This document shows positions 11,825 to 21,391 of a stretch of DNA of 64,000 nt, in pieces. Positions within the stretch are counted from its first letter, which is position 1. Each line of letters starts with the position of its first letter. Origin of the DNA: Pseudomonadota bacterium (lineage in GTDB: Bacteria > Pseudomonadota > Alphaproteobacteria > Rhodobacterales > Rhodobacteraceae); NCBI GenBank assembly GCA_020161655.1, contig JAIUPC010000012.1, positions 62,001-126,000 of the forward strand. Reading direction: 5' to 3'. Made by a program: the position numbers and the translations under genes. A model generated the notes under the pieces. That model saw nothing but the letters and a program-made list of their open reading frames with translations. It searched no databases and was not told the DNA's origin.

Positions 11825-11875
11825 TTTGGCTCCGGCGGTAGGGATCGAACCTACGACCAATTGATTAACAGTCAA
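11825..11875 (-). repeat. attL: Left attachment repeat (tRNA-Asn 3' fragment)
   Basis: 51 bases identical to 21315-21365. Read on the minus strand it begins in the anticodon-loop region and ends just past the CCA of tRNA-Asn. It lacks the 5' half (D arm and acceptor 5' strand), so it is not a functional tRNA. It marks the integrase-proximal end of the element. Confidence 0.93.
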
Positions 11876-11977
11876 ATTCCAACACCAAACCTAGTCTAAC
11901 GATGTAAAACTATCCAATGCGAAAAAACCATTACATCGCTTGACTTTGCAAGCCTTCGGCCCAACTATTCCTAACGC

Positions 11978-12026
11978 GGGGTAACACTACATATCGGCGC
12001 AATCCGTTACCCCAGTGTTACCCCAG
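11978..12026. promoter_or_regulatory. Putative integrase arm-type sites, left end
   Basis: Two abutting 11-bp copies CGTTACCCCAG (12005-12015) and TGTTACCCCAG (12016-12026), plus an inverted GTGTTACCCC on the minus strand (11987-11978). They lie between the att repeat and the integrase start. The same motif occurs twice near the right end (21231-21253). Presence at both ends and spacing of about one helical turn fit arm-type binding sites of a tyrosine integrase. Binding by the XRE repressor, whose operators also contain GTTAC, is an alternative. Confidence 0.65.
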
Positions 12027-12039
12027 AGGACAATTTGAC

Positions 12040-13290
12040 ATGGCGAAGGCGCTGACGACGAAGGGGATCGACGCACTGAAACCGGACCCGGAGCGCCGGG
12101 TTGAAGTTCCCGATCCTTCCCTGTCCGGCCTTTATCTCATCGTCCAGCCGAGTGGCGTGAAGTCGTGGGCGCTGCGCTACCGCGTCGCAGGACGGCCTGC
12201 CAAGCTGACGCTCGGGCGCTGGCCTGTCATGCAGCTTGCGGCGGCACGGGCGGCGGCAAGCGCGGCAATCGAGGCGGTGGAGCGTGGCAACGATCCTGGT
12301 GCCGACAAAAAGGCGACGAAGGCCGCGCGGCGCGACGCGCACCTTACCGAACGGGACAAGATCAAGACGCTTGTCGGGCAGTTCGCCACCCGCCACCTGT
12401 CGGGCCTCAGAAGCGGCGCACACGCACGCCAGTTCCTTGATCGGTTCGTTGTCAAGGCATGGGGGGATCGGGACATTCACACCATCACCCGACGCGACGT
12501 GATCGACTTGCTGGACGGCATCGCTGACAGCGGCAGGGGCGTCACCGCGAACCGTGTTCTGGCGCATACGCGGAAATTCTTCGCATGGTGCGTTGAAAGG
12601 GACGTGCTGGCGGCGTCGCCGGTTGCGGGCGTCAAGCCCGTGGCGAAGGAAGCGAGCCGGGAGCGCGTGTTGAGTGATGATGAAATCCGATTGTTCTGGC
12701 GCGCCTGTGAGGGCGTCGGGGAGCCGTGGGGGCCGCTCGGCAAGATATTGTTGCTGACGGGCCAGAGGCTCGGGGAAGTCGCCGGAATGCGGGAGGCCGA
12801 GGTTGCGGGCGAGGTATGGCACTTGCCAAGCGACAGGACGAAGAACGGGCGGGCGCATGACGTGCCTCTGTCGGCCGCTGCGCGCGACGTGCTGGCTGGG
12901 AAGCTGCGGATCGCGGGCGAGGCGGGGCTGATCTTCACGACGACCGGCACAACGCCGGTCAGTGGCTACCATAAGGCGCGGAACGGCATCGCCGACGCGA
13001 TGGCCGAGATCGCGTCCAAAGAGGCCGGCAAGCCGGTCGAGATTCCGCACTGGACCTTCCACGACCTCAGGCGGACGGCGGCAACCGGCATGGCCCGCCT
13101 CGGCATCGCAGTTCGCGTCACCGAGGCGGCTTTGAACCATGTCAGCGGCACCGGGGGCGGGATCGTCAGTGTTTACCAGCGCCATGACTATGCCGAGGAA
13201 AAACGGCAGGCCCTTGAGGCGTGGGCGCGGTTTGTCCTTTCGCTGGCGGACGGCGGTAGCGACAATATCGTGAGGCTTGCCCATGCCTGA
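12040..13290 (+). CDS. int: Tyrosine-type site-specific integrase (DUF4102/P4-like)
   Basis: Catalyses integration and excision at the tRNA-Asn site. 416 residues. The N-terminal arm-binding domain of the DUF4102 type (KALTTKGIDALKPDPERRVEV, GLYLIVQPSGVKSWALRYR) is followed by a core-binding domain (about 105-195). The catalytic domain has Arg in LTGQRLGEVAGM, HxxR in HDLRRTAATGMARLG, a later His in LNHVSG, and the nucleophile Tyr near the C terminus (SVYQRHDYAEEK). All expected catalytic residues are visible and the frame is intact. It lies 164 bases inside the left repeat and reads inward. Confidence 0.95.
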   Translation: MAKALTTKGIDALKPDPERRVEVPDPSLSGLYLIVQPSGVKSWALRYRVAGRPAKLTLGRWPVMQLAAARAAASAAIEAVERGNDPGADKKATKAARRDAHLTERDKIKTLVGQFATRHLSGLRSGAHARQFLDRFVVKAWGDRDIHTITRRDVIDLLDGIADSGRGVTANRVLAHTRKFFAWCVERDVLAASPVAGVKPVAKEASRERVLSDDEIRLFWRACEGVGEPWGPLGKILLLTGQRLGEVAGMREAEVAGEVWHLPSDRTKNGRAHDVPLSAAARDVLAGKLRIAGEAGLIFTTTGTTPVSGYHKARNGIADAMAEIASKEAGKPVEIPHWTFHDLRRTAATGMARLGIAVRVTEAALNHVSGTGGGIVSVYQRHDYAEEKRQALEAWARFVLSLADGGSDNIVRLAHA

Positions 13291-13966
13291 GACCCGCATT
13301 CAAGACGCGATGAGCGTGTGCGTCACAAAGGATCTGGAAAGCGAAGCCGACGTGGTCTCGGCCATCGAGGCCATAAACGCGGCCTTTCCCGCTCCAATCG
13401 TGGCGCTGAGTGAAATCCGCCAGAAGTTGGCGGCAGTCATGATGAAGGCGGGCTTTCCCCCGCCTGACAGCCTAGTATTTCATAAGGGAAGATATTGGTG
13501 CGCCTACACAGAAGGCGACAGGCCAAGAGGGAAAGCCCTGTCTCCGGGCTGGTCATTCACCACGAAAAAGGCCGAACCGCTCAGCCAAGAGCACGAAGCG
13601 GCCATCATCTATCGGAAAACTGTCGAAGTTGAGGGCGCGCTTACGACCGCCAACGTCGAGGCGCTATACCACCACGCTTTCAGTTTGGGAGTTGCAGTTG
13701 ATACCTTCAACAAACGGCGGTTGCATCTGCGAAAGGTTGCAATTGGAATGAAACAACTGGATGCGGGCAAATCCGGTGGGGCACAAAGGACTGCTGAAAG
13801 CTTTAAGTCAATACATGGTGCCGAAGCGCAGTTGATCGCCGTCCAAATTTCCCGAAAATCACCAAACTTGTCGTGGGCCGCAATTCGGAAGGTGATCGCG
13901 GCCAAATACCAGGTGAGCGACAAAACCGTGAAGGACGCTCTGAGGAACCCGAAAAAACAAGGGTAA
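13283..13966 (+). CDS. Element protein of unknown function with C-terminal HTH-like region
   Basis: 227 residues starting at the ATG overlapping the last codons of int by eight bases, which suggests coupled translation. No family recognised. An N-terminal helical region is followed by a patch FHKGRYWCAYTEGDRP and a central helical segment. The C terminus (SWAAIRKVIAAKYQVSDKTVKDALRNPKKQG) looks like a small helix-turn-helix with a basic tail. Composition is less GC-rich than the host genes. Position next to int suggests a role in recombination or regulation, but this is guesswork from context. Confidence 0.7.
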   Translation: MPETRIQDAMSVCVTKDLESEADVVSAIEAINAAFPAPIVALSEIRQKLAAVMMKAGFPPPDSLVFHKGRYWCAYTEGDRPRGKALSPGWSFTTKKAEPLSQEHEAAIIYRKTVEVEGALTTANVEALYHHAFSLGVAVDTFNKRRLHLRKVAIGMKQLDAGKSGGAQRTAESFKSIHGAEAQLIAVQISRKSPNLSWAAIRKVIAAKYQVSDKTVKDALRNPKKQG

Positions 13967-13995
13967 GACCCCGCGAATTGCCCTGTAGCGGGGTC
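13967..13995. repeat. 8-bp hairpin after the int-associated gene
   Basis: GACCCCGC (13967-13974) pairs with GCGGGGTC (13988-13995), directly after the stop at 13966. No T-run follows, so it is a weak terminator candidate separating int and its neighbour from the AlpA-led genes. Confidence 0.5.
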
Positions 13996-14040
13996 CTAAA
14001 TCGTTTGCACAGATTTTAACTCTGCAAGCGAGGTAGTCAA

Positions 14041-14229
14041 ATGAACGAAGAAAGGATCACGGCAGCGGCGGCGCGCGAAATGTGCGGCGGGGTGTCGGAT
14101 ATGACGTTCTGGCGGTGGCTGCATGACCCCGCCATGAATTTCCCAAAACCGGACTACATCAGGAAGCGGCGCTACTGGCGCAAGGCCGATCTTGTCGCAT
14201 GGCTCCAAACGCAGGCAGAGGCCGCGTAA
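14041..14229 (+). CDS. AlpA-like excisionase/transcriptional regulator
   Basis: 62 residues, MerR-like winged helix of the AlpA/phage regulatory family: ITAAAAREMCGGVSDMTFWRWLHDP, then FPKPDYIRKRRYWRKADLVAWL. In P4-like satellites and many PICIs, AlpA-type proteins activate excision or act as master activators. Here it heads the block of replication genes. The upstream 74 bases contain a dyad TTGCACAGA...TCTGCAA (about 14004-14029) that could be its operator. The full typical length of the family is present. Confidence 0.85.
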   Translation: MNEERITAAAAREMCGGVSDMTFWRWLHDPAMNFPKPDYIRKRRYWRKADLVAWLQTQAEAA

Positions 14230-14232
14230 GCC

Positions 14233-14598
14233 ATGATGATTGAGCAGCAGAAAAGCGAAAACCCCGGTGCGCTGGCGGGCGCGACCGGGGCCGTTCCGAA
14301 AAAAAACGACATCGTTGGGGCAGGGTACAACGCCTTGTCGGCGGAATCGACTGCAAAAACGCCTCCCGCGAATACGCCGCAGGAACGGTGGCGGGCGCGA
14401 AACGTGAAAGCGGCATGGGCGCATAGCGCAACCCGCTCCGCAATCCGTCTTGGCCTGATCGTTCGCGAGCCTTGCCAGGTCTGCGGCGCGGTCAAGGCGG
14501 ACGCGCATCACCCTGACTATGACCGGCCCTTGGTGGTGCGATTCCTGTGCCGCAAACATCATAAGCAAGAGCACTCGGGGGGCAAAAATGGGTCGTGA
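14233..14598 (+). CDS. Small phage-type zinc-ligand protein (HNH-like fragment)
   Basis: 121 residues. The C-terminal half carries an ordered set of possible zinc ligands and HNH-type residues: CQVCG, HHPDYDRPLVVRFLC and HHKQEH. This pattern is familiar from small phage proteins located near replication genes. The N-terminal 50 residues look disordered (Ala/Thr/Pro/Lys). A full HNH nuclease fold is not certain because the region after the last His pair is short. It overlaps the next gene by 11 bases and follows alpA by three. Confidence 0.7.
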   Translation: MMIEQQKSENPGALAGATGAVPKKNDIVGAGYNALSAESTAKTPPANTPQERWRARNVKAAWAHSATRSAIRLGLIVREPCQVCGAVKADAHHPDYDRPLVVRFLCRKHHKQEHSGGKNGS

Positions 14599-15358
14599 TC
14601 GCAAGAACGAGCGGCGCGGCACCAAGGTCGGCGGCCTATTCGTGCCGATCCTACATCAGACGCTCGATTGCGACGCTTGGCGCGCGCTCGGGCTGTCCGC
14701 GCGGTTGCTCTACATCGCCCTGCGCCGCCGCGCGCGCCCCGAGACTAACGGGCGTACCTTTCTCAGCGTACGCGATGCAGCAGAGGAAATAGGCGTCGCG
14801 CGGAACACGATTGCCGAGGCATTCCGCGACCTTCAGCGGCATGGCTTCATTGTTGCAACGCAGGTCGGTCGTTTGGGCGTGGACGGCCATGGCAAGGCTT
14901 CGACGTGGCTCCTGACCGAGATGAAGGCACCGAACGAACAGAGTCCGCCCAAGAACTATTTGGCGTGGCGCGCCGGGGCGGACTTTCCGGTCGCGAAGGG
15001 GTCTGCGCCTGTGCGGAAAAAACAGAACCCTGTCGCAAATTTTGCGCGTCCCCGTCGCAATAGCTGCGATGTTTCTCCGGCTCAGGTCACCAAGGCCGGG
15101 CCATCCTGTCGCAATCCCTGCGACGTTTTGGACAAAACCAACGCCGAGCCTGTCGCAATAGCTGCGCCACATCTAGAATCTGCCATGCAAGGTAGCGCCT
15201 TCCGCTCGTTCGCAGTCGTAACTCGCGGCACGGTTTCGCGCATCGGCGTTCGCGTGGCCCGCACGGCAAACATGCGCTTGGCGGATGCTTCGGAAATCTC
15301 GCCCGGTGCTTTTAAGCCGGTGCATCTTGAAACACTTCAACGGAGGACAACCCAATGA
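14588..15358 (+). CDS. Putative replication initiator with winged-helix N terminus
   Basis: 256 residues from the ATG at 14588, preceded by GGGGGG. Residues about 15-110 contain a winged-helix pattern (FVPILHQTLDCDAWRALGLSARLLYIALRRRAR; LSVRDAAEEIGVARNTIAEAFRDLQRHGFIV), as seen in phage and plasmid replication initiators. The middle of the gene carries four 15-bp iterons. The C-terminal part (from about residue 140) has low complexity and no recognised domain. Function is inferred from the HTH, the internal iterons and the position after alpA. A transcriptional regulator is the main alternative. Confidence 0.68.
   Translation: MGRDRKNERRGTKVGGLFVPILHQTLDCDAWRALGLSARLLYIALRRRARPETNGRTFLSVRDAAEEIGVARNTIAEAFRDLQRHGFIVATQVGRLGVDGHGKASTWLLTEMKAPNEQSPPKNYLAWRAGADFPVAKGSAPVRKKQNPVANFARPRRNSCDVSPAQVTKAGPSCRNPCDVLDKTNAEPVAIAAPHLESAMQGSAFRSFAVVTRGTVSRIGVRVARTANMRLADASEISPGAFKPVHLETLQRRTTQ
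15032..15166. repeat. Four iterons GTCGCA-N5-TGCG inside the initiator gene (putative origin)
   Basis: Copies at 15032-15046 (GTCGCAAATTTTGCG), 15054-15068 (GTCGCAATAGCTGCG), 15108-15122 (GTCGCAATCCCTGCG) and 15152-15166 (GTCGCAATAGCTGCG). Each has an inner dyad CGCA-N5-TGCG. Start-to-start distances are 22, 54 and 44 bases, close to whole helical turns. I saw no further full copy in the element. Confidence 0.8.
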
Positions 15359-15552
15359 GTACCGAAACCTTCGGTAACGCCAAGTTTCAGACCTGTCTGG
15401 AGAGACAGGCCAGACTTCTCATCGACGCCCTGATTGAGCAGCAGCGGCAACGTTGCACCTCGGAAGGCGCGCTTGGCCTCATAGCGCTCGCGGTGGAAAT
15501 CAACCGCGCCGGGCGCGCCATTCTCAGCCAGATCGAAAGGACCGAACGATGA
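15355..15552 (+). CDS. Small element protein of unknown function
   Basis: 65 residues, start overlapping the initiator stop (ATGA) and stop overlapping the next start (ATGA). Predicted mostly helical: ARLLIDALIEQQRQRCTSEGALGLIALAVEINRAGRAIL. It shares a pattern with the next product (a helical core ending in ...RAGRAILSQIE versus ...REAQAILDQVG), so the two may be distant duplicates or partners. No family recognised. Confidence 0.65.
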   Translation: MSTETFGNAKFQTCLERQARLLIDALIEQQRQRCTSEGALGLIALAVEINRAGRAILSQIERTER

Positions 15553-15755
15553 GCAGCGTTGAGTCAGCCGCCGCCGAGATGTGGAAAACCCTCTGCGAAG
15601 AGCTTTCGCGGTCGATGGTTGACCTGGTCCTGGCTGAGGCCAAGCGGAACGGCATCGCCGACGCTGAGGCGGCCAGGAGCCTCCTTTCCTTCGCAACCGA
15701 AATGGAGCGCGAGGCGCAGGCGATACTGGATCAGGTGGGAGGGCCGAAATCTTGA
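15549..15755 (+). CDS. Small helical element protein of unknown function
   Basis: 68 residues from the ATG at 15549, translationally coupled to the preceding gene. Predicted as two or three amphipathic helices (AEMWKTLCEELSRSMVDLVLAEAKRNG; AEAARSLLSFATEMEREAQAILDQVG). It resembles the preceding product in its C-terminal half. It is the last gene before a 229-base gap with a strong inverted repeat, so it closes the early-type gene block. Function unknown. Confidence 0.65.
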   Translation: MSSVESAAAEMWKTLCEELSRSMVDLVLAEAKRNGIADAEAARSLLSFATEMEREAQAILDQVGGPKS

Positions 15756-15781
15756 CTTTACGCCCGTGCCCCTCTACCATG

Positions 15782-15823
15782 GCTTGTGTGATTGCATCCG
15801 TTTCGAGGGGCAATCACACAAGC
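15782..15823. repeat. Perfect 14-bp inverted repeat upstream of the capsid gene
   Basis: GCTTGTGTGATTGC (15782-15795) and its exact complement GCAATCACACAAGC (15810-15823), 14 bases apart. It lies in the 229-base gap between the replication block and the capsid gene. No T-run follows. It could be an operator, a structured leader or a recognition site for a packaging or replication protein. Confidence 0.8.
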
Positions 15824-15984
15824 GACGCCGGATCGCTCTATTTCCGGCACCCGCTGTCCGTTCATGCCTGGCGCTGTTCGGAAGGCGAGGCTCGGCAACC
15901 TGGCCGAGCGAGGCGTACGCATGACGCTGCGCTCTGAACACTCCCAAAGCCAGCGCCCAATCAGGGCAACAGAGGAATTGCGCC

Positions 15985-17208
15985 ATGCAGATGCGCCATA
16001 CACGTACCCCTAACCGGTATCGCGGCCTTTCCGGCATCAACGCCGGGCCGCTCGATCCGAACACGATGCTGAAAGACCTCAACGATGCGTTCGAGGATTT
16101 CAAGGCGAAACGCGACAAGGAAATCGCCGATCTCCATGCTGGCATGGACGCTCAGGCGAAGGTCCTTGCCGCGATGAAGATTGGCGGCGGCGGCTCCCTT
16201 ATGACGCCTGGCGATTTGCCCGGGCGTGTTTCGACCGACGATGCGGCGGCCCTGGCCACCTTCGGTCGAACTGGCAGCATGGGTTTCAGGGCTGCGCTCT
16301 CGTCCGACTCTGACGGAAAAGGCGGCGTGGTGGTCTTCCCGTCCGTATCGAGCATGTTGCAGATGCGGCAGTTCAACCAGTCCGCGCTTGCCCGGCGCGC
16401 TCGCCGGGTGACGATTGAGAGCGGAGATTCCTTTGAGGAACCGTGGGATCTCGGCGACCCTGGCTCCGTATGGGTCGGGGAGCGCGAGACGCGCCCCGAG
16501 ACGACCAACCCGGATTTCGTGCTCAACAGGGTGATGTTGCAGGAGGTCTACATCTCACAGTCGATCACTCAAAGGCTCCTTGATGACGCTGCCTACCCGC
16601 TCGGGGAGTGGATGGCCGAGCGGATCGCGGACAAGATGGGCAGGGCGTCAGGCGAAGCATTCGTGACCGGCGATGGTGTCAACAAGCCGCGCGGCATCAC
16701 GCAATACGCCCTTTCGACGGCGGTCGATGCTTCTCGACCTTGGGGAACGATCCAGTCCGTCAAAACGGGTGTCTCCGGCGCATTCGCGGCCGCGACGACC
16801 AGCGTCAGCCCGGCTGATGTGCTGGTCGATACGGTCTACGCCCTCAGAGCGACGTACCGGCAGAATGCGTCCTGGCTTATGAACTCCAAGACCGCAGGCG
16901 CATGTCGGAAGATGAAGGATGCCGATGGCCGTTTCATTTGGACCGACAGCCTTGTGGTGGGGCAGCCGCCGATCATGCTCGGCTACCCTGTCGAAATTGA
17001 CGAGTTCATTCCCGACATCGGGGCGAACGCTCCGGCGATCTGGTTTGGCGACTGGGCGCAAGGCTATGTGATCGTAGATCGGCCCGGCGTCCGTCTGCTT
17101 CGCGATCCCTACACCAACAAGCCCAATGTAATCTTCTACGCCTATCAGCGTGTTGGTGGCGGGCTTCAGAACAGTGAAGCCATCAAGGCCGTGGTGTTCG
17201 GCACCTGA
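15985..17208 (+). CDS. HK97-fold phage major capsid protein
   Basis: 407 residues. The N-terminal 50-60 residues are a charged helical segment (LKDLNDAFEDFKAKRDKEIADLHAGMDAQ), like the delta/scaffold domain that a head protease normally removes. The rest matches the Phage_capsid family: SALARRARRVTIESGDSFEEPWD, GEAFVTGDGVNKPRGI, ASWLMNSKTAGACRKMKDADG, LLGYPV-like MLGYPVEIDEFIP and a C terminus YQRVGGGLQNSEAIKAVVFGT. The frame is intact and GAGGAA precedes the ATG. No protease or portal gene accompanies it, so assembly would need a helper's functions or the gene is a leftover. Confidence 0.95.
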   Translation: MQMRHTRTPNRYRGLSGINAGPLDPNTMLKDLNDAFEDFKAKRDKEIADLHAGMDAQAKVLAAMKIGGGGSLMTPGDLPGRVSTDDAAALATFGRTGSMGFRAALSSDSDGKGGVVVFPSVSSMLQMRQFNQSALARRARRVTIESGDSFEEPWDLGDPGSVWVGERETRPETTNPDFVLNRVMLQEVYISQSITQRLLDDAAYPLGEWMAERIADKMGRASGEAFVTGDGVNKPRGITQYALSTAVDASRPWGTIQSVKTGVSGAFAAATTSVSPADVLVDTVYALRATYRQNASWLMNSKTAGACRKMKDADGRFIWTDSLVVGQPPIMLGYPVEIDEFIPDIGANAPAIWFGDWAQGYVIVDRPGVRLLRDPYTNKPNVIFYAYQRVGGGLQNSEAIKAVVFGT

Positions 17209-17216
17209 CAACCAAA

Positions 17217-17355
17217 TGGCGGCGGGTGATGGCTCCTTCTCGCCGCCATCTCGCCGGGCGATGTCATGCTCGCCCGGCGACGCTTCCTGCCTGCGGCTCG
17301 ACACGGATTACGCGGGCAGGAAGCCCACCCCCGGGGGCAAAACTTCCCGGGTGGG
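17217..17355. repeat. Cluster of four hairpins between capsid and small-terminase genes
   Basis: Stem 1: TGGCGGCG (17217-17224)/CGCCGCCA (17241-17248). Stem 2: TCGCCGGGCG (17251-17260)/CGCCCGGCGA (17271-17280). Stem 3: GCTTCCTGCC (17282-17291)/GGCAGGAAGC (17315-17324). Stem 4: CCCACCC (17324-17330)/GGGTGGG (17349-17355), enclosing CCCCCGGGGG. All perfect. Placement directly upstream of a TerS gene is where cos or pac sites often lie; a transcription or RNA-processing role is also possible. Confidence 0.75.
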
Positions 17356-17416
17356 GGCCGCTGGACCGCTTGGGGGACTTCCTCTTCATAAACCGTAACA
17401 AACGTGGAAGCTGAAA

Positions 17417-17842
17417 ATGGGCACTAGAGGGCGAAAATCGGCGGCAGAACTGGCGGTGGCAACGCCGCCCGGCCTGATCGTCACGGCGCGGCAGGATGCG
17501 CCCTACGATCTTCGAGACGAAGAAGCGGATGTATGGCGCGGCATCGTGGAAAGCCTGCCCGCCGACTGGATCGCGCCCGGTTCTGTGCCTGTGCTTGCCG
17601 CCTATTGCCGGGCAACCGTATCGGCGCGCCGTCTAGGAATGCTGATCGTGGCTGTGGAGACGGGAGAGGGCTATGACGCCGACCAGCATATGAAACTGAT
17701 CCGGGCACATGGGCAGGTCGCTCAGGTACTCAAGACCCTCGCCACGGCGCTCAGGCTGACGCCGCAGAGCCGTTACACGCCTGCGCGGGCAGGCAACCAG
17801 AGGCCCGAGGGGTCGAGGCCGTGGGAGTTTAGTCATGGGTGA
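17417..17842 (+). CDS. terS: Phage terminase small subunit, P27-like family
   Basis: 141 residues. Begins with the family-typical GTRGRKSAAEL and continues with a helical DNA-recognition region (LRDEEADVWRGIVESLPADWIAPGSVPVLAAYCRATVSARRLG) and the late motif RLTPQSRYTPARAGNQ. TerS selects the DNA to be packaged. No large terminase subunit is encoded anywhere in the element, so packaging would need a helper phage TerL. Satellites often carry their own TerS to redirect a helper's motor. The stop overlaps the tape-measure start by eight bases. Confidence 0.88.
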   Translation: MGTRGRKSAAELAVATPPGLIVTARQDAPYDLRDEEADVWRGIVESLPADWIAPGSVPVLAAYCRATVSARRLGMLIVAVETGEGYDADQHMKLIRAHGQVAQVLKTLATALRLTPQSRYTPARAGNQRPEGSRPWEFSHG

Positions 17843-19829
17843 ACTTTCCGCCCTTCACGTCAAGATCACCGGCGACGCCAACGGACTAAAGGCCGCAACG
17901 GGCGTTGCTGTTGGTGCCATCGAGAAGGTGGGCAGGTCCGCCGAGGATAGCGCGCGGGTTTTCGAGCGGGCCTTCAAGAGCAACGAAAAGAGCCTTGAGC
18001 AGCTTCGCCGTGCCATTGATCCGCTCTATGCCGCGTCCAAGCGGTACGAGACGGCTGTAGGGACGCTCGACAAGGCGCTGAAGCTTGGCAACGTCACGCA
18101 GGCGCAACACGCGCGGATGCTGGACCAGCTTGGCACGGCCTATCTGAGGACGGGAGATCAGGCACAGACGGCGGCGGCACGGACTGGCAGCCTTGGCGGG
18201 GCGTTCGGTCGGCTTGGCAGCATGTCGGGGGAGACGCGAAACAGGCTGCGAAACGTTGGCTTCCAGCTTCAGGACATTGCAATTCAGTTGCAGATGGGAA
18301 CGAACGCCAGCGTGGTCTTTGCTCAACAGGGTAGCCAGATCGCAGGTGCCTTCGGACCGGCGGGGGCCATAATCGGCGCTCTTGCAGCGATCGGCATCCC
18401 GGCGCTGGCATTCGCGTTCTCGTCGCTCAGCACCGAAACGCAGAGTTTCGATGATGTTCTGAAGCGGGTGGATGAAAGTCTGAACCGCTTGAGGGAAACT
18501 GCGGCGATCTTCTCCGCCGAAGGCATTCAGGGGCTGATCGACAAATACGGTGAGTTGAACGGCGAGTTGCTGCAATTCATCGAGCGCCAGCGTGAAATGG
18601 CCGTGATGGACGCCATGCGGACTGCGACCGAGGCCGTTTCTGCGCTGCGCGCTGAATTTGGGGCGTCTCTGGCGGCCATTGAGCAGCAAAGCATGGCCGG
18701 TCGCATCGCCATGGATGGCCTGAAAGCATCTACTGGGCTGACCAATCAGCAAGTCCGCGACCTCAAGCGGGCATTCCAGGAGCTGGATGCGGCTCAGACG
18801 CTTGATGGGCAAGTCGCTGCCCTCACGAAAATCCGAGAATTGCTGGCCCAAGGCACAATGAAGGGCGGCGAATTCTACACCAAACTTCTCGCCGCCGAAG
18901 ATGCCCTTCGCCAGATGAACGCCGAGGGTGCGAAGGCGGGCGGCTGGATTGATGCGGCCATCAGCGGCGCGGCCAATCTCGCTTCGCAATTCTGGGATGC
19001 TGCACAGGCCGCAGCGGCCATGCGGTCGGCAAGCGCGAGCGGCGGCCCGACCGGCAATGTCTCAGGGCTTGGCGTGTCGCAGAACCCCTTCGACACGCAG
19101 CGCGGCACGGTCGTTCCCTTCGTTCGCCCCAGTGGCGGCGGTGGTGGCGGAGCGCGCGGCGGGGGTGGTGGTTCGGTCAACCCGATCATCGCGGAACTGG
19201 AAAGCCTGCGTCAATCGCTCCTGACTCAAGAGGAAATGCAAATCCAGAGCTTCACGCGGCAGCAGGAAACGCTCCGCACGGCCTTGGAACAGCGGCTCAT
19301 CACGCAGCAGGAATACGCGGCGATGATGGAGGAAGCCCAAACCCGCCATTCCGACGCGATGACGCGCCTCGATTCCTACCGATACGGGGATGCGCTGAGC
19401 AAGGCGGGGACGTTCTTCGGCGACATGGCGGCTGCCACGGCGCAGGGCAACGACAAGATGCTGAAGATCAGCAAGACGTTTGCGGCGGCGCAGGCGCTGA
19501 TCAGCACCTATCAGGGCGCGGCGAAGGAACTGGAGAAGGGCACCTTCGGCTTTGCCTCCGCGATGCGGGTCATCGCGCAGGGTATGGCCTTCATCAGCGC
19601 GATCAGGGGCGCTGGCAATGGCGGTGGTGGCGGAGGGCGCAGCGTCGGCGGCGGTGGAGGTGGCGGGGGTGGCGGTGCGGCGAATTCACCGGCAGCGCCA
19701 AGCACTTACTTCAACGTGCAACTCACCGGCGGCGACAACTTCGGCAAGGGCCAGGTTCGCGATCTTATCACGGCGATCAACAAGGAAATCGAGAGCGGGG
19801 CCGTCATTCGCGGCATCCGCGCAACGTAG
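17835..19829 (+). CDS. Phage tail tape-measure protein (short form)
   Basis: 664 residues. Residues about 1-130 are helical (ALHVKITGDANGLKAATGVAVGAIEKVGRSAEDS). A lambda-H-like segment follows: RNVGFQLQDIAIQLQMGTNASVVFAQQG, then a hydrophobic stretch GPAGAIIGALAAIGIPALAFAFSSL. Long coiled regions follow, with two Gly-rich tracts (about 430-455 and 590-616). Tape-measure proteins set tail length in siphophages; several hundred further residues are common, so this one is short. No other tail gene is present, which is odd for a functional tail module. The first copy of a 26-bp repeat overlaps its stop codon. Confidence 0.87.
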   Translation: MGELSALHVKITGDANGLKAATGVAVGAIEKVGRSAEDSARVFERAFKSNEKSLEQLRRAIDPLYAASKRYETAVGTLDKALKLGNVTQAQHARMLDQLGTAYLRTGDQAQTAAARTGSLGGAFGRLGSMSGETRNRLRNVGFQLQDIAIQLQMGTNASVVFAQQGSQIAGAFGPAGAIIGALAAIGIPALAFAFSSLSTETQSFDDVLKRVDESLNRLRETAAIFSAEGIQGLIDKYGELNGELLQFIERQREMAVMDAMRTATEAVSALRAEFGASLAAIEQQSMAGRIAMDGLKASTGLTNQQVRDLKRAFQELDAAQTLDGQVAALTKIRELLAQGTMKGGEFYTKLLAAEDALRQMNAEGAKAGGWIDAAISGAANLASQFWDAAQAAAAMRSASASGGPTGNVSGLGVSQNPFDTQRGTVVPFVRPSGGGGGGARGGGGGSVNPIIAELESLRQSLLTQEEMQIQSFTRQQETLRTALEQRLITQQEYAAMMEEAQTRHSDAMTRLDSYRYGDALSKAGTFFGDMAAATAQGNDKMLKISKTFAAAQALISTYQGAAKELEKGTFGFASAMRVIAQGMAFISAIRGAGNGGGGGGRSVGGGGGGGGGGAANSPAAPSTYFNVQLTGGDNFGKGQVRDLITAINKEIESGAVIRGIRAT

Positions 19830-19917
19830 CCCTGCGCGCGCGCGGGAAACCCATTCTGGCGGTGCAATTGCGGAACCGCCAGAGGAGAAGCACGTAGCCC
19901 TGCGCGCGCGCGGGAAA
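19824..19917 (+). repeat. Two 26-bp direct repeats, 68 bases apart
   Basis: Copies at 19824-19849 and 19892-19917 are identical: they start ACGTAGCCC, run through five GC steps and end CGGGAAA. The first includes the tape-measure stop codon. Between them sits a hairpin CTGGCGGT (19856-19863)/ACCGCCAG (19875-19882). The pattern suggests a small duplication at the end of the virion-gene block. Confidence 0.85.
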
Positions 19918-19939
19918 TCCTGTGTTAGCGTTAAGAGAC

Positions 19940-20156
19940 AGTCCCCCAAGCGGTACATTAACCCCCAGCGCCTGGACTTTGCGCCTACCCCTCCAATTGA
20001 AAGCCAGAGGGCGAGCGTTGCGGCAAGGCTGGCGAACATGGAGCGCGGCGGAGACAGGCGTTCGGGTGGCGATCAAACTGCAAATTTGCAGTTTGAAACC
20101 GCACCACCGCCGCCCGCGCCGCCGAAATGCTCAACGTTTCGGAGCGCAGCGTCAAG
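19940..20156 (+). pseudogene. Frameshifted remnant of a phage ParB-like/HTH protein
   Basis: One plus frame reads YINPQRLDFAP...SQRASVAARLANMERGGDRRS followed by DQTANLQ. The third frame then continues AAEMLNVSERSVK (to 20156). In intact phage ParB-like proteins these two blocks, SQRAMVAARLAN and AAEMLNVSERSVK, follow each other in one frame, so a frameshift near 20090-20120 is implied. No start codon with a ribosome binding site is visible, and everything after the HTH is missing. Confidence 0.5.
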
Positions 20157-20222
20157 ATGGGGGCGGTGGCAATATCAAGGTGCAAATTTGCCCCTTGTTC
20201 CTCAAACCGGCAAATTTGCCGG
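20074..20222. repeat. Three palindromic GCAAATTTGC copies
   Basis: A 22-bp perfect palindrome centred on GCAAATTTGC (20074-20095, arms CAAACTGCAAA/TTTGCAGTTTG), a plain copy at 20182-20191, and a 16-bp palindrome CCGGCAAATTTGCCGG at 20207-20222. They may be protein sites upstream of, or termination signals downstream of, the XRE gene. Each copy can also be read as Ala-Asn-Leu codons of the decayed ParB-like gene, so a coding origin is possible. Confidence 0.7.
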
Positions 20223-20241
20223 ATTTGCCGGGCATCCCGCT

Positions 20242-20466
20242 TTACGTCTTCCGTAGCCTGACACCTGCGCCGCCGCCATTTTCAGCGATGAACTCCACAC
20301 CAGCAGTTTCCAAGGCTGCGCGGATGGCGGCGACGGTGCTTTCGCGAAGATCCTCACCGCGTTCGAGGCGGGCAACCGTGTTCGGCGAAACTCCGGACGC
20401 TTCAGCTAGTTCCCGCACCCCGAGGCCGGTTGCCGCTCGCGCCATTTTGCACTGCTTCGCGTTCAT
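20242..20466 (-). CDS. XRE-family repressor-like regulator
   Basis: 74 residues, a single Cro/C1-type helix-turn-helix: QCKMARAATGLGVRELAEASGVSPNTVARLERGE, then a short tail (VEFIAENGGGAGVRLRK) common in small alphaproteobacterial XRE proteins. It is divergent from the genes at 20556 and 20927, with two matching dyads in the intergenic region. It probably represses both itself and the divergent pair, and may act as the element's lysogeny-type regulator. It is the only minus-strand gene of the element. Confidence 0.88.
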   Translation of the reverse strand: MNAKQCKMARAATGLGVRELAEASGVSPNTVARLERGEDLRESTVAAIRAALETAGVEFIAENGGGAGVRLRKT

Positions 20467-20469
20467 ATG

Positions 20470-20531
20470 ATAACCCTGTTACCTTTTCTCTTGCAGATCA
20501 AGAGCAATCCGGGCTAGAGTAACAGCGTTAC
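20470..20531. promoter_or_regulatory. Two XRE operator-like dyads
   Basis: GTAAC-AGC-GTTAC (20519-20531) and, on the minus strand, GTAAC-AGG-GTTAT (20482-20470). Centres are 49 bases apart in the xre/20556 intergenic region. The second lies directly upstream of the xre start codon, so it could block its own promoter or ribosome binding site. Confidence 0.75.
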
Positions 20532-20555
20532 TAATTCAGCGCAACGGAGAACACC

Positions 20556-20930
20556 ATGACTACCAACAACCCCGCCTTGGGGACCGATGCCGGCTGGCCG
20601 AAACCCACGATCCCGGAACACCAGCGCCACAACCACGAGAAAACCGATTCAGGCCTGATCCGCATGGAAGGGTTGATCTGTGCCATTGAAGTCCTGACGA
20701 ACGATATGGGGCCAGTAATTCGCTGTTCAGACAAGGAGTGGACGGCACTCACTGCCGTTGCCGATCTGCTTGCCACGCAGGTTGAGGAAGTCTGGCGTCT
20801 GCGCCGCCTGGAATGGGTGGGCCTCGGCGGCAGCACTCAAGGACTGGCCGAGGCCGACGTCGCGAAGGCGCGGGGCGATGTGTCCGCGTCAGACGCCAAG
20901 ACCGGCAAAGCCACGGAGGAAGCCAAATGA
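20556..20930 (+). CDS. Small element protein of unknown function
   Basis: 124 residues, ATG after CAACGGAGAAC. The central helical part is LIRMEGLICAIEVLTNDMGPVIRCSDKEWTALTAVADLLATQVEEVWRLRRLEW. The N and C termini are polar and probably disordered. No family recognised. It is first of a two-gene unit divergent from the XRE gene and is coupled to the next gene by ATGA overlap. In satellites this position often carries accessory genes, but nothing here allows a functional call. Confidence 0.68.
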   Translation: MTTNNPALGTDAGWPKPTIPEHQRHNHEKTDSGLIRMEGLICAIEVLTNDMGPVIRCSDKEWTALTAVADLLATQVEEVWRLRRLEWVGLGGSTQGLAEADVAKARGDVSASDAKTGKATEEAK

Positions 20931-21166
20931 CTAGCAACACCGCATCGGCGAGCGCTACCGCCTTTCCTGCCGCCCGTCGCAAGCCCAAGGGCGTCTTGAC
21001 GCAGCACGAATGGGACGAGATGCACGACGCCCTGACACTGGCGCTAGACGCGCTCGGGGACGGGCCAGATGACGTGGATCGCGGCTTTCTGGTGAATTCG
21101 ATCCTTCACCAGCGGATCGCGCTGCGGATCGCCCACAAGCGGCACGAGAGGCTAAAGGCGAGTTGA
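20927..21166 (+). CDS. Small element protein of unknown function
   Basis: 79 residues. A polar N terminus with a basic patch (AARRKPKG) is followed by a helical region (LTQHEWDEMHDALTLALDALGD) and a basic C-terminal helix (LHQRIALRIAHKRHERLKAS). Start overlaps the preceding stop. A good terminator follows 30 bases later, so this is the last gene of the element. Function unknown. Confidence 0.66.
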   Translation: MTSNTASASATAFPAARRKPKGVLTQHEWDEMHDALTLALDALGDGPDDVDRGFLVNSILHQRIALRIAHKRHERLKAS

Positions 21167-21196
21167 GCCACTGACAGCTTTCGCCGTTCGACTTCT

Positions 21197-21220
21197 AGCC
21201 CGCTTCGGCGGGCTTTTCTT
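21197..21220 (+). terminator. Intrinsic terminator at the right end of the element
   Basis: AGCCCGC-TTCG-GCGGGCT (21197-21214) followed by TTTCTTT. A stable UUCG tetraloop hairpin with a T-run. It ends the 20556-21166 unit. Confidence 0.9.
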
Positions 21221-21230
21221 TAGTCGAATC

Positions 21231-21253
21231 TGTTACCCCAGATGTTACCCCAG
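21231..21253 (+). promoter_or_regulatory. Putative integrase arm-type sites, right end
   Basis: TGTTACCCCAG twice (21231-21241 and 21243-21253), the same 11-mer found doubled at 12005-12026 by the left end. Both pairs have the same orientation relative to the plus strand. Confidence 0.65.
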
Positions 21254-21314
21254 AAGGAAATGACCTCGGCGCATCCTGCCGAGGATTTCCTAACTATCGG
21301 AGGTTATTGAGATT

Positions 21315-21365
21315 TTTGGCTCCGGCGGTAGGGATCGAACCTACGACCAATTGATTAACAGTCAA
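21315..21365 (-). repeat. attR: Right attachment repeat, within tRNA-Asn
   Basis: 51 bases identical to 11825-11875. They cover the tRNA-Asn gene from the anticodon region to its CCA end plus two flanking bases. Excision between the two copies would leave one intact tRNA and a 9.49-kb circle. Confidence 0.92.
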
Positions 21366-21391
21366 CTGCTCTACCGCTGAGCTACGCCGGA
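21317..21391 (-). tRNA. tRNA-Asn (anticodon GTT)
   Basis: 75 bases with the CCA end encoded. Acceptor arms TCCGGCG and CGCCGGA pair fully. D arm GCTC...GAGC. Anticodon stem GTTGA/TCAAT with loop CTGTTAA puts GTT at positions 34-36. T arm GTAGG-TTCGATC-CCTAC. The discriminator base is G. The 5' half is unique and the 3' half is the integration target, so the host tRNA was preserved at the right junction. Confidence 0.97.

Follow-up and report, generated by a model that had tools for sequence, protein, structure and literature searches.

A 9.5-kb tRNA-Asn island of a Rhodobacteraceae bacterium with genes for a capsid protein, a terminase small subunit and a tape measure protein: a likely satellite of cos-packaging phages

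We analyzed a 64-kb stretch of DNA (hereafter the window; G000:C6:62001-126000) in the genome of a Rhodobacteraceae bacterium (G000; 4.08 Mb in 24 contigs), which contains an island of 9490 bp (~9.49 kb between attachment [att] copies) integrated at a tRNA-Asn gene. Positions are those of the window (position 1 is the first letter of the 64-kb stretch) unless the handle of another genome (G) or locus (L) is named. As judged from its genes, the membership of this island in the phage satellites in the broad sense is well supported. We regard it as likely that the island is an integrated satellite hijacking a cos-packaging helper phage by replacing three parts of the helper. With less confidence, we lean toward a narrower proposal, namely a separate satellite family that would replace, within ~9.5 kb, exactly the terminase small subunit (TerS) with its cos site (whose DNA is packaged), the major capsid protein (MCP; head size) and the tape measure protein (TMP; building of the tail). 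The motor, portal, protease, connectors and the rest of the tail would come from the infecting helper, making both head and tail chimeric in one particle. The features central to this proposal are as follows.

11825-11875, no strand: left att copy, 51 nt, the displaced 3' end of tRNA-Asn, identical to the direct repeat at 21315-21365
15985-17208, plus strand: HK97-fold MCP, 407 aa (PF05065, 5e-69; TIGR01554, 7e-84)
17334-17395, plus strand: cos-like packaging site, directly upstream of terS (~22 nt before it)
17417-17842, plus strand: TerS, 141 aa (phrog_12559, 1e-21; Pfam Terminase_4 weak, 0.088)
17835-19829, plus strand: TMP, 664 aa (TMP_2, 4.5e-8; phrog_9483, 6e-29; several PHROG tape-measure families)
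19929-19994, minus strand: second cos-like copy, inverted and weaker (10.8 bits), downstream of tmp (inverted repeat I1)
21315-21365, no strand: right att copy, inside the 3' part of tRNA-Asn (21317-21391, minus strand)

The first-pass annotation had delimited an island of ~9.5 kb by intact att repeats at tRNA-Asn, and these ends were confirmed as exact 51-nt repeats. The 33-nt core of att occurs at two places only in the window, even with up to three mismatches allowed. The tRNA-Asn gene is intact at 21317-21391 and, thus, the right att copy is the 3' part of a live tRNA gene. Phage satellites in the broad sense, including phage-inducible chromosomal islands (PICIs), are usually smaller than about 18 kb and carry an AlpA-like or other regulator plus a replication gene of their own. 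The element studied here is a discrete and small island, with an integrase and att repeats at a tRNA gene.

The three virion genes named in the first-pass annotation were all recovered, in the order of MCP, TerS and TMP. In the AlphaFold model of the MCP (mean pLDDT of 71), a long N-terminal helix (residues 25-66) is followed by the HK97 fold, suggesting that the protein carries an N-terminal helical delta-like domain. Against PDB, the best match of this model was the capsid of the gene transfer agent (GTA) RcGTA (6tb9; E value of 6e-30), and the next protein was that of the capsid-forming PICI (cf-PICI) EcCI2 (9gyi). The MCP is also 44% identical to the GTA MCP of the host over 302 aa. For the AlphaFold model of TerS, HK97 TerS occupied ranks 1-5 of the PDB search with TM scores of 0.60-0.81 and a probability of 1.00, the Foldseek E values being just 0.14-0.37. 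HK97 is a cos phage. Among the 44 viral contigs encoding a TerS homologue, 41 match a terminase large subunit (TerL) as well. The terS and tmp genes overlap by 8 nt. Among phage isolates, the best matches to the TMP come from Microcystis and Pseudanabaena phages (43-48% identity, covering 43-53% of its length); 11 Rhodobacter phages come next, with 31-39% identity and a coverage of 37-52%.

No TerL, portal, protease or adaptor reference protein matched within the island at an E value of 0.01, and no leftover open reading frame (ORF) of TerL or portal size was found, ORFs across the assigned genes in other frames aside. The absence of TerL, portal and protease, as the first-pass annotation had it, therefore stands. 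Besides the MCP, TerS and TMP, no other recognised head or tail gene was found in the island. The virion gene set is thus incomplete and the island would need a helper; we regard the motor, portal and protease as probably borrowed, given that all three are absent. In the G000 genome, matches to the Pfam models of portal (PF04860) and S78 protease (PF04586) were confined to an RcGTA-like cluster at G000:C6 ~380000-395000 (L036 and L037), which comprises TerL, portal, protease, MCP and tail genes, and no match to TerL_ATPase (PF03354) was found anywhere. The genome-wide helper search covered these three models, and within their reach a helper inside the host genome was rejected. The sole other MCP match in the genome, at G000:C6:390175, was considered as part of a helper prophage and rejected, since its annotation placed it in the GTA cluster.

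To predict the packaging site, we used a profile built from 15 phage regions upstream of terS and no satellite sequence. These were drawn from 37 upstream regions, and several of the 15 are closely related to one another; L022, L057, L062 and L063 (full upstream regions with no clear or alignable motif), L009 (a near-duplicate) and 17 regions beginning at or near a contig end were left out. The best match of this model in the whole 64-kb window is the site at 17334-17395 (17.2 bits), and 20 block-shuffled islands scored 6.4 bits or less. Altogether, the best match lies just before terS in five of the six bounded TerS-bearing elements, with 24.5 bits in G204, 17.2 in the window, 13.1 in G106, 13.1 in L060 and 9.3 in G378. 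In the unbounded TerS element L021, a match of 12.4 bits is also found before terS. On the other hand, five islands lacking this module (two of G318, L077, L223 and L224) scored 1.2-4.0 bits. By our reading, many phage contigs start 10-12 nt before a CATAAAC-like motif, ~30-65 nt before terS, which suggests that such contig starts are assembled physical cos ends. Starts of this kind were seen in L004, L005, L045, L051, L054, L055 and L056.

Three further observations concern the cos-like sites. The two copies in the window (17334-17395 and 19929-19994) have ACCGCTTGGGGGACT in common. Cos-like matches were detected in three elements with MCP and TMP, namely G013 (L221 8735-8788, 17.3 bits), L084 (3590-3632, 11.5 bits) and L082 (6731-6777, 9.8 bits). 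No TerS was found in any of the three and, given a cos-like match, these elements would depend on the TerS of a helper.

We searched related genomes with proteins of the island. With TerS, matches were obtained in 7 of 390 genomes at the level of the order and in 4 of 394 at that of the family, the window genome included, and the search with the conserved protein encoded after the integrase (orf2) matched 5 of 394. The MCP search matched 336 of 390 genomes, mostly through GTAs by our reading; surroundings were taken for nine among the matches listed, of which five had no TerL or portal (L218-L222), three had a portal (L223-L225) and one was a GTA (L226). Five bounded islands with MCP and TerS were recovered, measuring 8959 bp (G437), 9147 bp (G378), 9274 bp (G204), 9490 bp (the window) and 9515 bp (G106) between att copies, and the relatives of the window island occupy four further tRNA genes (Ala, Cys, His and Thr).

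The island of G106 (L031), a member of the same genus as the window host, is flanked by 51-nt repeats (96% identical) at tRNA-Ala, and comprises genes for an integrase (58% identical to that of the window), orf2, an AlpA-like protein (71%), an HNH-like protein (75% over 73 aa), MCP, TerS (70%), cargo and a TMP remnant. At the place of the TMP (L031 6422-9334), we read by eye a tautomerase-like protein, an alpha/beta hydrolase-like protein and a 311-aa exported protein as cargo, in addition to the TMP fragment. The island of G378 (L033) lies at tRNA-Cys and carries MCP-TerS-TMP as in the window. That of G204 (L218), at tRNA-His, encodes an integrase (70%), AlpA-like, HNH-like and replication-like proteins (the last 36% identical), and MCP, TerS (phrog_83, 3e-16) and TMP in the order of the window, with xre on the opposite strand. 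Thus, two other genomes repeat the order of the three virion genes in islands of comparable size, and the prospect raised in the first-pass annotation that no second genome would share them did not materialize. The G378 integrase had no match to that of the window at an E value of 1e-3. The island of G437 (L079), at tRNA-Thr, has an integrase (48%), orf2, an AlpA-like protein (68%), primase-like genes, MCP and a Terminase_4 TerS (8e-15).

Less complete or differently composed elements were also detected. G118 is represented by a 5.05-kb contig with MCP-TerS (L032), and G110 (L219) has MCP and TerS (phrog_83, 1e-15), with no att repeat and no TMP found. G318 possesses two islands with protease and MCP, of 10083 bp at tRNA-Leu (L078) and 10547 bp at tRNA-Asn (L220), in neither of which TerS, TerL or portal was detected; the MCP of the latter (L220 10196-11389) was stop-free in a frame check despite a TGA listed in the genome-search match. 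G013 (L221), adjoining tRNA-Cys, has MCP-TMP with no long att repeat found. Portal-free islands or contigs with MCP were thus identified in G000, G106, G118 (a fragment), G378, G437, G318, G204, G110 and G013. The TMP is common among the relatives but not universal, with a remnant in G106 and none found in G437 and G110, and the TMPs of portal-free elements range from 563 to 717 aa, with the 563-aa one starting at the edge of its contig; a single TMP of 899 aa falls outside this range. In G092 (L034), G094 (L035) and G472 (L076), TerS lies beside TerL in ordinary prophage loci, and the orf2 search also matched the cf-PICI-like L077 (G094) and L080 (G078). The TerS match of G107 contains three stops. 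L042 (Bradyrhizobium sp. AUGA SZCCT0283) is island-like, with part of an integrase, AlpA-like, primase-like and S78-type protease genes and TerS, and no MCP or TerL seen.

Three of the 44 viral contigs with a TerS homologue had no TerL match (L021, L043 and L060). L060 (IMGVR_UViG_3300036520_000008; 11,269 bp) ends in an exact 127-nt terminal repeat, indicating a circular or concatemeric molecule; as 127 is a usual assembler overlap length, the circularity comes from the assembly graph. Its genes, by our reading by eye, are for an integrase, primase-like, AAA-like and HNH-like proteins, followed by TerS-MCP-TMP, with no TerL, portal or protease match. In the viral-contig search with the MCP, 10 of the best 80 of 598 loci had no TerL or portal match; seven of these looked GTA-type or were cut contigs, and the remaining three were L082 (protease-MCP-...-TMP), L083 (MCP-TMP) and L084 (TMP-MCP-...-integrase), with no TerL or portal match within the stretch examined. 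Of four viral-contig scans with single satellite proteins, one recovered the query itself, another an ordinary phage contig (L081), and two had no match. The phage contig L044 stems from the same metagenome as L060 (3300036520), and the two have related HNH, TerS and MCP (MCP 49% identical over 419 aa). L044 possibly represents a helper lineage; as the helper of L060 itself it was set aside, as its MCP is just 67% identical at the DNA level, which makes it a relative and not a demonstrated helper.

We infer the mechanism, a composite of known moves, from the anatomy of the island. An infecting helper would derepress the island, leading to its excision and replication. The satellite TerS, bound to the satellite cos, would direct the TerL of the helper to the island DNA, and the satellite MCP, cleaved by the protease of the helper or the host, would form or co-form a small head on the portal of the helper, as Ccm does for SaPIbov5, a Staphylococcus aureus pathogenicity island (SaPI). 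Such a head would shut out the helper genome. The satellite TMP would replace that of the helper to yield a chimeric tail, as in PLE11, a PICI-like element (PLE), and one cos-delimited copy of ~9.5 kb would be packaged. The five bounded MCP-TerS islands differ little in size (8.96-9.52 kb), which agrees with a fixed small head. An RcGTA head takes up <4.5 kb, its size being 35% below that of a T=3 head (PMC7296036; T, triangulation number). By our own, speculative arithmetic, T^1.5 scaling from RcGTA would give ~6.9 kb at T=3 and 10.7 kb at T=4, and a unit of 9-9.5 kb perhaps suits a T=4 head, given equal packing of the subunits.

Alternatively, the capsid protein and TMP may be decoys that poison the head and tail assembly of the helper, the island being a phage-defence island whose DNA travels in ordinary helper particles via TerS and cos, perhaps as concatemers. 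Interference of both kinds is known, as Ccm lowers the helper titre (PMC5052747) and tail assembly can also be a target (PMC11364771). By arithmetic, four copies of ~9.5 kb add up to the content of a helper-sized head (~38-42 kb), and the varying presence of TMP among the relatives agrees with a decoy as well. Nevertheless, the MCP and TMP look full length, the precedents that have been studied, Ccm and the PLE11 TMP, become part of satellite virions, and the small spread in size among the bounded MCP-TerS islands suits unit-length small heads better than concatemers. We thus regard the decoys as unlikely.

A prophage relic, derived by deletion and retaining its ends and three virion genes by chance, appears improbable. 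In its favor, all three virion genes are phage-derived, the TMP of G106 has decayed, and the second, inverted cos-like copy at 19929-19994 hints at a past rearrangement. Nevertheless, the same gene set recurs at similar size in genomes that are not linked to one another, and the integrases and tRNA sites differ. The order of genes is also foreign to the phages examined. In the phages with this TerS, TerS-TerL comes first, followed by portal, protease and MCP (MCP ahead of portal in some), and so a simple deletion cannot yield the MCP-TerS-TMP of the window; it could yield the TerS-MCP-TMP of L060, a relative with a circular form. The set and order of a prophage, TerS-TerL-portal-MCP-tail, are thus not those of the island, in which no TerL, portal or tail-tube gene lies between MCP and TMP and terS overlaps tmp. 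In four annotated phages, the TMP gene starts 3.8-7.9 kb beyond MCP. Both genes were found in 11 of 23 phage loci, and in every one of these the gap between match ends is 3.0 kb or more, match-end distances being upper estimates where a match is partial. In eight portal-free elements (the window, G378, G204, G013, L060, L082, L083 and L084), the two lie 0.2-1.2 kb apart.

The phylogenies bear on the relic in both directions. In the TerS tree (43 rows), of which the bootstrap had not settled, the sequences of the window, G106, G118 and L043 formed a clade with no phage member (support of 98/93). In the MCP tree (61 rows), two clades were satellite-only among the sequences sampled, namely the window, L082 and L083 (100/98), and G106, G437 and G318 (100/96), and the clade of the island MCP neighbored GTA MCP with modest support (92/86). 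Other satellite sequences fell elsewhere (the MCPs of G378, L043, L060, L084 and G118, and the TerS of G378, L060 and L042), and some of them, including the MCPs of G378, L060, L084 and L043 as well as TerS, sat among phage sequences, as a relic would. This scatter suggests that the virion genes were probably recruited several times. Between the window and G106, codon position 2 is more conserved than position 3 in int, alpA, hnh and terS (0.75-0.89 vs. 0.46-0.50), and so it is in the MCP between G106 and G437 (0.75 vs. 0.48), a pattern that reads as a signature of purifying selection. The first-pass annotation had held that relatives in full prophages with deletion scars would decide for a relic; no case of this MCP and TerS together in such a prophage was found, and the relic did not prevail. 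Altogether, the relatives of near-equal size indicate that this lifestyle is maintained and that the island is not a dead virus.

The GTA of the host as the helper is very improbable: its MCP is akin to that of the island by identity, tree position and fold, and its cluster is the sole source of portal and protease in G000 with the Pfam models used, but RcGTA heads hold <4.5 kb (PMC7296036), the TerS and cos-like site of the island match cos phages, and the island genomes G437 and G318 have no PF04860 portal match at all.

Several points weigh against a satellite with three replaced parts. Neither a helper nor excision, packaging or a particle was observed. G106 retains a TMP fragment only, and in G437, which has MCP and TerS, no TMP was found. 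G437 (5.0 bits) is also the exception with no cos match before terS, and the cos model matched nothing before terS in G118, L043, G110 and L042, albeit CATAAACCGTAACA or AGAAACCGTAACA is visible ahead of terS in G118 and L043. Islands of this kind occur in few of the sampled genomes, 9 of roughly 650, a rough lower bound over the handles G000-G645 with different queries on overlapping draws. The window TMP (664 aa) is no shorter than those of the related Rhodobacter phages RcBaka (631 aa) and RcOceanus (624 aa); a role of the TMP as tail shortener is thus unsupported, and tail shortening is not its evident purpose. The codon signal is weaker in the window MCP (0.56-0.67 vs. 0.38) and TMP (0.45-0.51 vs. 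0.33-0.34), for which only distant comparators were available.

The remaining features of the island are listed below.

12005-12026, plus strand: tandem TGTTACCCCAG-type repeats, left; probable integrase arm sites
12040-13290, plus strand: tyrosine integrase, 416 aa (PF13356; PF00589; phrog_1, 4e-58)
13310-13966, plus strand: orf2, conserved protein after the integrase, 218 aa; L031, L077, L078 and L079 have a homologue in the equivalent position
14041-14229, plus strand: AlpA-like excisionase or regulator, 62 aa (phrog_66, 5.5e-4, weak)
14233-14598, plus strand: HNH-like endonuclease, 121 aa (phrog_2340 endonuclease, 8e-19; "HNH-like" by eye)
14588-15358, plus strand: replication-initiation-like winged-helix protein, 256 aa (HTH_36, 7.6e-7; phrog_270, 2e-5; phrog_345, 6e-5)
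15355-15552, plus strand: small ORF, 65 aa, its start preceded by GGAGG
15549-15755, plus strand: small ORF, 68 aa, from an internal ATG of a listed ORF
20080-20219, no strand: three GCAAATTTGC palindromes (starts at 20080, 20182 and 20210), near xre and within 140 bp
20242-20466, minus strand: Xre-type repressor, 74 aa (HTH_31, 7e-9)
20556-20930, plus strand: small ORF, 124 aa
20927-21166, plus strand: small ORF, 79 aa, from an internal ATG of a listed ORF
21231-21253, plus strand: tandem TGTTACCCCAG repeats, right; probable integrase arm sites

The integrase and Xre repressor agree with the first-pass annotation, and its AlpA and replication genes were recovered through weaker family matches but occupy a conserved place in the relatives; the HNH-like gene, the cos-like site at 17334-17395, the probable integrase arm-type repeats and the terS-tmp overlap are additions to its list. 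For the replication-like protein, we chose an internal start, the family searches having used the ORF from 14519, and NCBIfam returned weak regulator matches only. The orf2 protein matched no Pfam or NCBIfam family, and the two small ORFs at 20556-20930 and 20927-21166 had no NCBIfam or PADLOC match. Xre is 82% identical to that of G013, 54-56% to G204, and 53% to those of G378 and G110. TGTTACCCCAG has four matches in 64 kb with up to one mismatch (0.2 expected), all less than 200 nt from an att copy. Downstream of tmp lie non-coding repeats and then xre. Two near-identical 29-nt repeats (97%; 19824-19852 and 19892-19920) are found directly 3' of tmp, and the GCAAATTTGC palindromes (3 in 64 kb vs. 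0.08 expected) possibly serve as an operator or origin. Between the capsid gene and the preceding replication-like operon, an inverted repeat was read by eye at 15782-15823 (GCTTGTGTGATTGC / GCAATCACACAAGC), which may be a terminator or a hairpin with a regulatory role.

By its flanks, G652 is the genome most similar to the window (85% identity on the left and 89% on the right); its tRNA-Asn is likewise occupied, by an island that is unrelated but shares the att core. On this comparison, the site is an insertion hotspot and the window island is an insertion. A clean empty site was not found, as G652 is occupied and the other long left-flank matches lie elsewhere (on other contigs or far from tRNA-Asn). 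The G652 island (L245 = C323 and L246 = C314) was read by eye as encoding an integrase and primase-like, DNA methyltransferase-like and resolvase-like proteins, and the two contigs probably join, as they end in the same gene. Three cf-PICI-like islands of 9.8-11.0 kb (L077, L223 and L224), with MCP, protease and portal (and TerL in L077), share the tRNA-Asn att and integrase family (64-67%) of the window island.

Among the known satellites, cos-type SaPIs such as SaPIbov5 resemble the window island in encoding their own HK97-fold capsid homologue with a delta domain, Ccm (PMC8569155; PMC5052747), in having no protease found in the island and, as predicted for the window island, in cos packaging and small heads built together with the helper. 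The likeness of the window MCP to Ccm is by description and by the delta-like helix in the model, and Ccm has its delta-like domain though the SaPIbov5 island has no protease (PMC8569155). SaPIbov5 differs in having no TerS, a helper-type cos and a Gram-positive host, and TMP is not mentioned in the excerpts. The pac-type SaPIs have their own TerS working with the TerL of the helper, but use pac instead of cos, and their capsid size is set by CpmA and CpmB and not by an MCP (PMC5052747). PLE11 of Vibrio cholerae encodes a TMP that replaces that of the helper in chimeric tails, but also a tail chaperone and a hub of the baseplate; the tail of its helper, ICP1, is contractile, and satellite shell proteins of PLEs are not described in the excerpt (PMC12987554). 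PLEs are also defined by a Vibrio cholerae host, unlike the Rhodobacteraceae host of the window. The authors of that study state that no other satellites were reported to encode TMP, and note putative tmp genes both in PLE-like elements and in certain cf-PICIs (PMC12987554). The cf-PICIs share an HNH-like gene, TerS and HK97 MCP with the window island, but carry TerL, portal, protease and connectors, all absent here (PMC10690885). As the window island has only the MCP out of MCP, protease, portal and connectors, and TerS and an HNH-like gene with no TerL, it is not a cf-PICI by definition, and the contrast with known cf-PICIs drawn in the first-pass annotation agrees with the definition in PMC10690885. 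Its view of an unusual strategy stands in part: satellite capsid homologues (PMC8569155) and TMPs (PMC12987554) are each already known, but their combination with TerS and cos is new to us.

No description of a satellite with MCP, TerS and TMP but neither TerL nor portal was found in the open-licence literature, most subscription literature being outside this scope. Known satellites take over heads (Ccm, Sid and CpmAB), packaging (TerS and Rpp) or, since March 2026, tails (PLE TMP). If our proposal is true, all three takeovers are joined in one compact cassette that has neither motor nor portal, suggesting what parts of a virion a satellite gains by encoding itself and what it can take from a helper, and raising the question of how a foreign shell protein assembles on the portal of a helper. 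It would extend satellite TMPs to Rhodobacteraceae and offer a size rule of ~9-9.5 kb, together with a cos model usable in searching for helpers.

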